In this document: piece by piece, positions 1,323 to 4,153 of the stretch | How positions within the stretch are numbered: position 1 is the stretch's first letter | How the letters are laid out: each line of letters begins with the position of its first letter | Source: Bacteroidaceae bacterium | GTDB lineage: Bacteria > Bacteroidota > Bacteroidia > Bacteroidales > Bacteroidaceae | Length of the DNA: 64,000 nt | NCBI GenBank assembly: GCA_017408685.1 | Contig: JAFQUE010000018.1 | Coordinates: 36,909 to 100,908 of the forward strand | Reading direction: 5' to 3' | The notes under the pieces: generated by a model | Told to the model about the DNA's origin: nothing | What the model saw: only the letters and a program-made list of their open reading frames with translations | Database searches by the model: none | Made by a program: the position numbers and the translations under genes

Positions 1323-3064
1323 TTAATAATCCCAATCATCTTCACTGATTATTGAATTCAGTCCGTAGGAACGATTCGTTTTAGTTACCTCAAGAAGAAT
1401 CCTTTTTTTCTCACTGGCAGTAGGTATGCGACCATCGAATTTTGTCAGTTCACTTTTAATTGCTTCATAATAGATTTCAGAAACAGGCAAATCAAAGACA
1501 TAATTGTCATTCTCGTCAATAACATACCCGAAGTTCATCTTGCTTTCAGACTTGTTGAACTTTTTTATTGTCGTAATAGGTGTATTTGGACTAAAATATT
1601 GTGAATTATTTACTTGATTGTCTGCGACTTTAATAGATGGTGGAGTTACAAAAGAAAAGCCATCCTTAAAATTAGTTACATTCTTATACCCCACTACCGA
1701 CAATTGATTTGTAATCAAATTATAATGATAATACAACCCATCAATTCTTTTGACCCAGAAATGCTTTTGACCATACATTATAGGAAGTGTCACATCTTCA
1801 TATTCTATTGGGATAACGACTTCGTTATCTGTTGACAAAACACCCCATTTGCCGTTTTTCTTAACAGATACCAAATCAAATGAATTCTTTAAGACATCGT
1901 CGTATTCAAAAGGAATTATGACATCGCCATTGCGGTTGACACAACCAAATTTCCCTTCTTTCTTGACATTGAAAATTTCCTTGTCTGTCTTATTAAGCGG
2001 AAAATCTATTGATAAAAAACCAGATAAATGACTTATAATATTATTCTGCTCATCAAAACATCCCATGTTCCGGCAGTTGTCTTGGCTGCCCAAAGAGAAC
2101 AGTTTAATGAATGTTTTATAGAATTATATCCGCTACGAAGCACATTGCCTTTCTTATCTATAAAAGACCATGTTGCACCATTTACGGGTGCTATATCTCC
2201 ATTAAACTCACCATGAGTCCAAAATTCAATCTTCTCGTAAGGCGAATTAAACTCTGCAACATTAAAACTTTCTTTAGTCTTAATATTATAATATCCGCAA
2301 ATCGTTTTTTTCTTCTTTGAAATATAATACCTCATCATATCACCTCTTGGTTCCATAATTGTATTATAAATATTGGGAGCGAGAAGTATCTGTCCATTGG
2401 CGTCAATGAGTCCAGCCTTAAAAATACTCAGCGGATATTTGCTAAAACCCATATAAGAACAATCGGTAATCAAAGTGTCCTTTGTATAATGATACGAATA
2501 CGCAAGTCTCTTGCCTTCATATAACGCCCCCCCTTCTGCATCGAAAGAGAACTCATACAATCCTTTGTAAAGAGGGTTAATCAATATTTTTCCATGAGCA
2601 TCAATAATACCATATTTTGCATTAGCCATGTATGTACCATCTTCGCTTTTGGTAGCTTTACCGCCAAGTGCTATCAAAGCCTTTCCATAGGTATTCAGTT
2701 TTGAGATATGAGAATACTTTACTGGCAATACAATCTCACCCTTGCTATTACAAAGCCCCATTTTCTTTCCACTTTTGATGAGATACATGTCTTTAGCCCA
2801 CAATGAAATCTGTGAGTATTTTACAGGAAGAATCAAGTTGCCATTAATATCAAGCAGTCCAAATTTATCGGACTTTGAAACTATGGCAACACCATCATTG
2901 AATGGAAGAGCATTGTCATAAAGACATTTAACAATTTCCTTTCCTTGACTGTTAACAAAACCGATTTTACCTTTATTGTTAACAAAAACCTTTAAATTTT
3001 GAGCTTGCGTTATCGAAACCATCTGGAGAAAGAACAAGCACAAAAGAACTCTTTTGATTTTCAT
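1323..3064 (-). pseudogene. WG-repeat secreted protein split by a -1 frameshift
   Basis: Two overlapping reading frames, 3064 to 2033 (343 aa, with signal peptide ending ITQAQ) and about 2093 to 1323, together make one WG-repeat protein of about 580 residues. Both halves carry the repeat pattern, for example KFGLLDINGNLILPVKY in the first half and KWGVLSTDNEVVIPIEYE in the second. The first frame ends TAGTWDVLMSRIIL. Adding one G to the GGG run at 2062-2064 (reverse strand TGGGATG to TGGGGATG) restores TAGTWGCFDEQNNIIS, an intact repeat motif. WG repeats form beta structures in exported bacterial proteins and have no single known function. Whether this is a real mutation, a phase-variable site or a base-calling error cannot be decided here. 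Confidence 0.8.
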
Positions 3065-3121
3065 AGCATATTATTGCCTATAGCTCCAGATTCGGCGGTA
3101 AAAACTAACCTAAAACGGCAT

Positions 3122-3400
3122 AAAAAAAAGACGTGGAACTGCTCTAGTCGCTTGTCCCACCCTTAGAGGCTTCTCGCATTGCCCGGTTTAGCAGAACAAG
3201 CAACGCGATAGACCACGCCCATATGCATATATCATCCTTTAATAAAAGGACGATAAGATACACACAACGGGAACATCTACGTTGCCTCATCCTTGACTAA
3301 ACCTGAATTTTGCGAGAATTCCTAAAGGTCAAAGACAAGACGTAAGACGTCTTAAAAATATGTCGGAACCTTTCAAACAAAAAACATTAGTGAAAGGTTC
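3122..3400 (-). ncRNA. Structured noncoding RNA candidate, long rod-like fold
   Basis: No gene fits this stretch but the reverse strand has a full transcription unit. A -7 box TAAATTTG (3412-3405) places the start near 3400, exactly where a 10-bp hairpin begins (3391-3400 with 3366-3375). It is followed by a rod of nested helices, all perfect or nearly so: 3347-3351/3130-3134, 3334-3339/3151-3156, 3321-3328/3161-3169 (imperfect), 3311-3316/3173-3178, 3297-3303/3185-3191, 3280-3285/3200-3205 and an 11-bp apical stem 3245-3255/3230-3240 with a 4-base loop. The closing helix runs straight into eight U (3129-3122), as in an intrinsic terminator. Size and rod shape recall 6S-type RNA or another Bacteroidales structured RNA; that identity is only a guess. 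It could also act as leader of the WG gene 58 bases downstream. Confidence 0.6.
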
Positions 3401-3404
3401 GTTG

Positions 3405-3412
3405 CAAATTTA
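3405..3412 (-). promoter_or_regulatory. -7 promoter box of the structured RNA
   Basis: The reverse strand reads TAAATTTG, an exact match to the Bacteroidetes TAnnTTTG box. The expected start, about four bases downstream, coincides with the first base of the 5' hairpin of the RNA. No clear -33 element was seen. Confidence 0.5.
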
Positions 3413-3523
3413 ATACTTTTTTTCTTTTAAAACTATATGTGCAAAAAAGAATTAAAAAAAATGTAAATAAAAAGGCGACCCGGTAATGGGTCACTATCCT
3501 CAAGTATCATTCAAACCACGGTG

Positions 3524-4153
3524 TCAGAGTTTATATGCCATTGTGACACCGAAGGCCATGTGGTAGAGACGCATTTTATCATGGAATTTCGCAAAGCCAC
3601 GGCTAAACTCGAGTCCAAGAGCAAAATCGCCTATATCTACTCCTAACCCCAACAGGATTCCGGCGTCGAAACGGTCATATGTGTCAAAGACGCTTTTATA
3701 GACATCGTCAGCCACTTCGATATTTGTTCCGAAAAGTCCTGCAGAGAAATAAGGACCAACTTTGGCTGTGATATCAAAGGTCTCAAAAAAGTCAAGAGCA
3801 TGCACCACGCTTGTCAAATCATATTTGTATGCGGCACATAGAGGGAACTGGACATAAGCCATACTTATCCTGCTGTCATAACCGACGTTCCTGTGGCTCC
3901 TGTCAATGAATTCAAGACCGGGAATGAAATAAAAGTCATCGTATACGTTCCATTCATACAGGACACCGAGTTTGTAAGAGAATGAACTGCTGAAACCGTC
4001 GGAATGTTTTCCTGTTACAAACGAGCCGCCAAGCCCCAATGTAGCAACAATTTTATTCTTCTCGGACATTCCATTCCATGGCAGGTTTCCTACTTGGGCA
4101 TTCATACCCAATGCCATTACTGACAATAAAATAGATGTAAAGAGTTTCTTCAT
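3524..4153 (-). CDS. Outer-membrane beta-barrel protein
   Basis: A 209-residue protein with signal peptide MKKLFTSILLSVMALGMNAQ. The mature part alternates short amphipathic strands with Gly and aromatic residues (for example YVQFPLCAAYKY and ILLGLGVDIGDFALGLEFSRG) and ends in an aromatic-rich strand finishing MAYKL. This is the usual look of the small porin/OmpA-barrel-like families of Bacteroidetes (8 to 10 strands). Substrate or partner is unknown. It stands alone, with a -7 box TAACTTCG at 4209-4216 on the same strand. Confidence 0.75.
   Translation of the reverse strand: MKKLFTSILLSVMALGMNAQVGNLPWNGMSEKNKIVATLGLGGSFVTGKHSDGFSSSFSYKLGVLYEWNVYDDFYFIPGLEFIDRSHRNVGYDSRISMAYVQFPLCAAYKYDLTSVVHALDFFETFDITAKVGPYFSAGLFGTNIEVADDVYKSVFDTYDRFDAGILLGLGVDIGDFALGLEFSRGFAKFHDKMRLYHMAFGVTMAYKL

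Follow-up and report, generated by a model that had tools for sequence, protein, structure and literature searches.

Minus-strand RNA before a WG-repeat gene

The window (the whole stretch of 64,000 nucleotides that was analysed) carries on its minus strand a leader RNA of about 340 nt, which runs from a TAnnTTTG box, the Bacteroides -7 promoter consensus, to just before the start codon of a gene for a WG-repeat protein. The features are given below, each with the kind of evidence used.

3475..3494 (-): terminator-like hairpin ahead of the leader (pattern scan)
3405..3412 (-): promoter -7 box, exact TAAATTTG (sequence)
3366..3400 (-): 5' hairpin of 10 bp, GAACCUUUCA/UGAAAGGUUC, near the predicted transcription start (folds)
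3337..3353 (-): strand e (AAGACGU) and its local partner e'; e alternatively pairs with f (folds, permutation)
3305..3321 (-): hairpin Lh, of which the loop CUCGCA at 3316-3311 kisses Rh (folds, permutation, covariation)
3168..3183 (-): hairpin Rh, with the loop UGCGAG at 3178-3173 (folds, permutation, covariation)
3129..3220 (-): right terminator-like hairpin, in which g (3220-3213) pairs with f (3136-3129) and c:d lies inside (fold, covariation)
3122..3129 (-): run of eight U residues, the first of which is the last base of f (sequence)
3134..3140 (-): 5' strand AGUUCCA of a helix that spans the U-run (fold, permutation)
3082..3088 (-): 3' strand UGGAGCU of the same helix, shortly before the start codon (fold, permutation)
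2033..3064 (-): downstream gene for a WG-repeat protein of 343 aa (ORF; Pfam PF14903, E 4.7e-29)

The hairpin at 3475..3494 probably belongs to the upstream gene (3524-4153, minus strand). A second ORF, after the first WG-repeat gene (window 1323-2093, minus strand), looks WG-repeat-like by eye.

The first-pass annotation of this DNA had proposed a structured RNA with its own promoter and terminator and had named no strand; the promoter box and the U-run fit the minus strand. The minus-strand fold reached -108.4 kcal/mol, compared with -69.4 ± 5.0 kcal/mol for shuffled sequences (z -7.85; none of the 200 shuffles was as good). An RNA from the plus strand was rejected since the fold of the same region is weaker there (z -5.1) and gene direction, U-run and promoter box all fit the minus strand. 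The proposal of a structured RNA with a promoter box and a terminator-like end is borne out by the z-score and by copy-specific pairing in more than 100 relatives. The exact -7 box is indeed present at 3412-3405 (-), the 5' hairpin at the predicted start was recovered as a 10-bp stem at 3400-3366 (-), and nested helices forming a rod were found in the minus-strand folds. The U-run had been placed right after a closing helix; the eight U residues are there, at 3129-3122, but the helix appears in the centroid and not in the minimum free energy fold, which uses short local hairpins near the U-run instead. Folded alone, the right hairpin at 3129..3220 (-) has an energy of -40.7 kcal/mol.

Copies of the element and known RNA families

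Short blocks of the element recur in its own genome and in congeners, as seen by DNA similarity, and reading of the recurring blocks by eye revealed three subtypes with one architecture. Two models were used, the 3'-arm model R1 and the full-length model R2, and the genome counts obtained with both take in the genome of the window as well as those that supplied copies for building the models; stricter filters were applied in searches of more than 40 genomes. R1 gave 10 matches in the own genome at E <= 1 and, at E <= 0.001, had matches in 42 of the 44 genomes of the genus and in 68 of the 295 genomes of the order. At E <= 1e-4, R2 matched 39 of 40 genus genomes, with up to 17 matches in one congener, and 67 of 291 sampled Bacteroidales genomes (46 of 183 genera). 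In the phylum samples, for which the share of genomes outside Bacteroidales is not given, 2 of 395 genomes were matched by R1 at E <= 1e-5 and 2 of 390 by R2 at E <= 1e-4, in both cases the genome of the window and a second Bacteroidales genome. A pattern scan of named genomes matched at least 119 stretches; among the matches listed (80 of 119), Bacteroides, Parabacteroides, Barnesiella, Prevotella, Mediterranea, Phocaeicola, Alistipes, Coprobacter, and Muribaculaceae are present. Copies occur, for example, in Bacteroides timonensis (L147), Mediterranea massiliensis (L175), Parabacteroides distasonis (L130), and Barnesiella An55 (L123).

One copy (L157) lies on a metagenome bin called Akkermansia, outside Bacteroidales, and this bin is perhaps mis-binned. 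Two apparently identical leaders, L058 and L059, are located on opposite strands of one contig (G000:C60, near 14800(-) and 127900(+)), each of them preceding the same 255-aa lipoprotein-like ORF; the pair is apparently an inverted duplication or an assembly effect. A phage origin of the element was rejected, as only three IMG/VR stretches match the pattern.

The rod shape and size had suggested a free-standing RNA resembling 6S RNA. This idea fails because the 6S RNA of Bacteroidales, Bacteroidales-1 (RF01693), has a single locus of its own elsewhere in the genome, on a different contig, with 121.6 bits at G000:C55:40026-40205 (L054:1501-1680) as the sole genome match at E <= 10. A genome search with RF00013 gave one match of 12.5 bits, on contig C53, and the covariance-model check against the Rfam 6S families yielded no at-threshold match in the window; a 6S identity was rejected on these grounds, and the element occupies the position of a leader instead. 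Like Bacteroidales-1, it is a long rod-like RNA of the same bacteria; unlike it, it is multi-copy, joined to mRNAs and without a match to the model. More generally, the window has no Rfam match at threshold, and the same is true of the element in the 20 relatives' loci L033-L052 (18 of which, without L041 and L045, were used in a further step) and in seven named loci. When the window element, seven loci of the family and 12 distant ones were scanned by E-value, every Rfam match on the element stayed below threshold, and these matches were rejected as plant or animal RNAs or as chance-level. The element is absent from Rfam 15.

A candidate RNA of 132 bp, HMP2_4205, is described in the accessible part of its source as palindromic, terminator-like, mostly from Bacteroidetes and near TPR genes; compared by description only, it might be a fragment of the leader element, and that part of the description mentions no switch and no leader of such size (PMC8040213). 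According to a map of B. thetaiotaomicron, the median 5' UTR is 32 nt long and 13.5 % of the mRNAs have one of more than 100 nt (PMC7366714). In a further paper, none of the looked-for terms occurs (PMC11109978). No description of the leader element was found in the literature searched, which did not extend to subscription texts and supplements, so an earlier partial listing is possible.

Rod, kissing loops and two competing folds

The strands of the element follow each other in the order e-a-X-b-h-Y-g-c-X'-d-f. Because of the similarity of e to g, of a to c, of h to f, and of b to d, the strands can swap partners. There is support for two mutually exclusive folds, one a rod whose hairpins kiss, the other a terminator-like hairpin that ends at the U-run. 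In the compact forms (8 of the 12 divergent matches fetched are only 167-180 nt long) this strand plan seems, on reading by eye, to show most clearly. The compact subtype of 167-180 nt comprises L246-L252 and L254, from distant Bacteroidales; in L246, h and g as read by eye form one hairpin with a four-base loop, and g also complements f before the U-run.

The search among relatives for compensatory changes, which the first-pass annotation had put forward as a check, revealed both copy-specific pairing and covariation. Between copies, PV and PC, the two stems of the rod, share hardly any sequence, and yet they pair within each copy. Energies of -11.8 kcal/mol for PV and -11.2 kcal/mol for PC were obtained with a copy's own strands, compared with -4.6 and -3.3 kcal/mol with swapped ones, and none of 1000 permutations did as well for either stem. 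These values are from 112 distinct copies out of 122 records, collected with a scan pattern that does not contain the two stems; the control PC5:PV3 was reached by 40 of the 1000 permutations and was not clean. Within types, z was -18.8 for PV and -18.3 for PC in the 56 copies found with R1 (out of 68 loci; L058, L061-L064, L069, L070, L072, L079, L088, L103, and L114 were left out).

The hairpins Lh and Rh sit between PV and PC. Their kissing loops are paired in 306 of 306 cells, with compensatory changes at three of the six pairs; the number of pairs changed on both sides was matched by 49 of 500 shuffles and that of pair types by 71 of 500. Different but still complementary kissing sequences were seen by eye in weaker copies of the own genome. 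The alignment comprised 51 of the 56 R1 copies (L060, L084, L091, L093, and L115 were left out), and 18 of its columns, some of them paired, are invariant.

In the right hairpin, formed by g:f and c:d directly before the U-run, 96.4 % of the cells are paired among the 51 relatives, and 11 of the 15 pairs change on both sides, which was equalled by none of 500 shuffles. The side of the rod that competes for g (h:g and the adjoining stem) is kept in 86.5 % of the cells and the left hairpin a:b in 75.8 %. For these two, the paired fraction, the changed cells and the covariation score beat all 500 shuffles; pairs changed on both sides were not above shuffles (326 of 500 for the h:g side, 193 of 500 for a:b), and pair types were in no or bare excess (242 and 39 of 500, respectively). 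Permutation within types, which like the shuffles leaves kinship in, gave z-scores of -5.6 for g:f and -5.9 for h:g, and of -7.0, -4.5, and -5.1 for a:b, a:d, and c:d, with 0 of 2000 permutations as good in each case; for e:e' the within-type z was -3.3. The closing helix e:f, with z -8.2 over all types, was not significant within types (z -1.4; 165 of 2000), and neither was a short b:c segment. For e:d, a negative control, significance was reached over all types (0 of 2000) and lost within types (222 of 2000). At the level of structure, g:f and h:g exclude each other as a terminator and an antiterminator helix would.

In the window, the best fold (-108.4 kcal/mol) compares with -99.8 kcal/mol when the terminator fold is forced. 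Among 60 of 100 copies sampled, the whole fold beat the separately folded halves by a median of 12.3 kcal/mol, and in 60 copies each half showed unusual stability on its own as well (median z -3.0 and -4.6). Since the whole fold is more stable by this margin, switching would need kinetics or a factor.

Position before genes and possible function

The next gene was codirectional in 103 of the 109 loci with enough flanking sequence, opposite in five and missing in one. For 98 ORFs, the median distance from the 3' anchor to the start codon is 102 nt; 14 of the 122 records, some of them at contig ends, lack an ORF of at least 40 aa starting 50-330 nt downstream. TAnnTTTG was present upstream in 105 of 116 related loci, compared with 13.8 expected from shuffles, and the U-run pattern was matched in 82 of the 116 loci, compared with 5.3 expected, an incomplete match that counts against an attenuator.

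The element had been taken to end at the U-run. This does not hold, as the helix between 3140-3134 and 3088-3082 spans the run and the equivalent helices of the family show copy-specific pairing, so that the conserved element extends past it. A loop downstream of the U-run is the pairing partner of the bases immediately ahead of the closing strand, with -9.56 kcal/mol for a copy's own strands and -7.05 kcal/mol for permuted ones (z -17.6; 0 of 5000), and at least seven contiguous pairs occur in 81 of the 139 copies compared with 25 %. The set of 139 was obtained from 190 entries, 45 being without a recognised closing strand or flank, and after removal of duplicates. As the helix reaches into the mRNA, the conserved unit includes the region before the start codon; by tying the element to the mRNA, it points to a cis-acting leader and not to a free sRNA. 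With its fixed direction and this pre-start helix, the element is a 5' leader of codirectional genes.

On balance, the leader is probably a cis-acting bistable transcription attenuator. Its target genes would be diverse, accessory and often for exported proteins; in the window the target would be the gene of a WG-repeat protein. From the structures we infer termination itself, which of the folds is ON, and the existence of a trigger. Transcription would start at the leader's own promoter, and the RNA would fold in one of two exclusive ways. In the putative ON fold, the rod would form, two short hairpins would kiss across a four-way junction and g would be held by h; the bases just before the U-run would then be free to pair with the loop near the start codon after read-through by the polymerase. 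In the putative OFF fold, the left half would form a hairpin of its own and g would pair with f, yielding a strong hairpin that, with the U-run, could act as an intrinsic terminator before the gene. Expression of the downstream gene may depend on a stabiliser of the kissing core, or on how fast the RNA folds.

The main rival, rather unlikely by comparison, is a leader that acts post-transcriptionally in cis: the U-run would be a linker, and the rod and the spanning helix would govern how translation starts or how the mRNA decays, with termination not being regulated. The spanning helix can form only when the RNA extends to either side of the U-run, and it stops a short distance ahead of the start codon; both points would fit such a role, as would the greater stability of the rod. 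The strong conservation of g:f beside the U-run and its competition with h:g, as expected of a terminator and antiterminator, speak for attenuation instead. Far less credible is a free-standing, terminated sRNA that acts in trans and has the downstream gene next to it incidentally: a promoter box, a terminator-like end and recurrence within one genome would suit it, but the codirectional genes at a narrow distance, the absence of shared sequence in PV and PC and a conserved helix into the pre-start region, needless for a free sRNA, do not. A mobile or palindromic DNA element of the MITE or REP kind, dispersed and near accessory genes by chance, would be multi-copy and partly palindromic, as here, where R1 also matches the opposite strand of some copies, but this is the least probable reading given the fixed orientation and distance to genes, the promoter box upstream of copies and stems that are divergent but compensated.

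The downstream proteins searched against Pfam (the window protein and those of 83 of the 98 ORFs) match 53 families, among which no pathway stands out. LRR_5 (9 of 84) and LRR_8 (8) are the commonest, and no single family is dominant among the 84 proteins. By a crude signal-peptide pattern, 55 of the 98 downstream proteins look exported, compared with 172 of 678 other ORFs of the same loci. A defence theme was rejected, as PADLOC families match singly or in pairs among the 84 proteins.

The cobalamin riboswitch is an example of a leader with a kissing loop. With riboswitches and terminator/antiterminator leaders, the element has in common its 5' leader position, a loop-loop contact and two exclusive folds, one of them terminator-like; it differs in having no at-threshold Rfam family and, downstream, no common pathway. 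A wider reading, tentative and on the doubtful side, is that the attenuator represents a large new riboswitch-like class of Bacteroidales, in which the kissing four-way-junction core might sense a cell-wide signal, such as a second messenger, stress or the state of the envelope, and switch a surface and accessory regulon, the hypervariable self-complementary stems keeping copies in the same genome from cross-pairing. If attenuation by the leader is real, gut Bacteroidales carry a widespread multi-copy leader RNA. Exported and accessory proteins, among them those with BspA-type LRR, WG, and Sel1 repeats, would then make up a hidden regulon in bacteria that are common in the gut of humans and ruminants, and the two-state RNA architecture would be unusual and directly testable.

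Some recurrent downstream genes were noted by eye. The leaders L137, L161, L201, and L226 precede small HTH-like proteins of similar sequence, which are possibly regulators. Four others, L038, L040, L236, and L241, are located before short Cys-rich proteins that start alike (MENKKNELQSRREFFKKAAKG and similar), and at L038 the ORF that follows resembles a radical-SAM enzyme.
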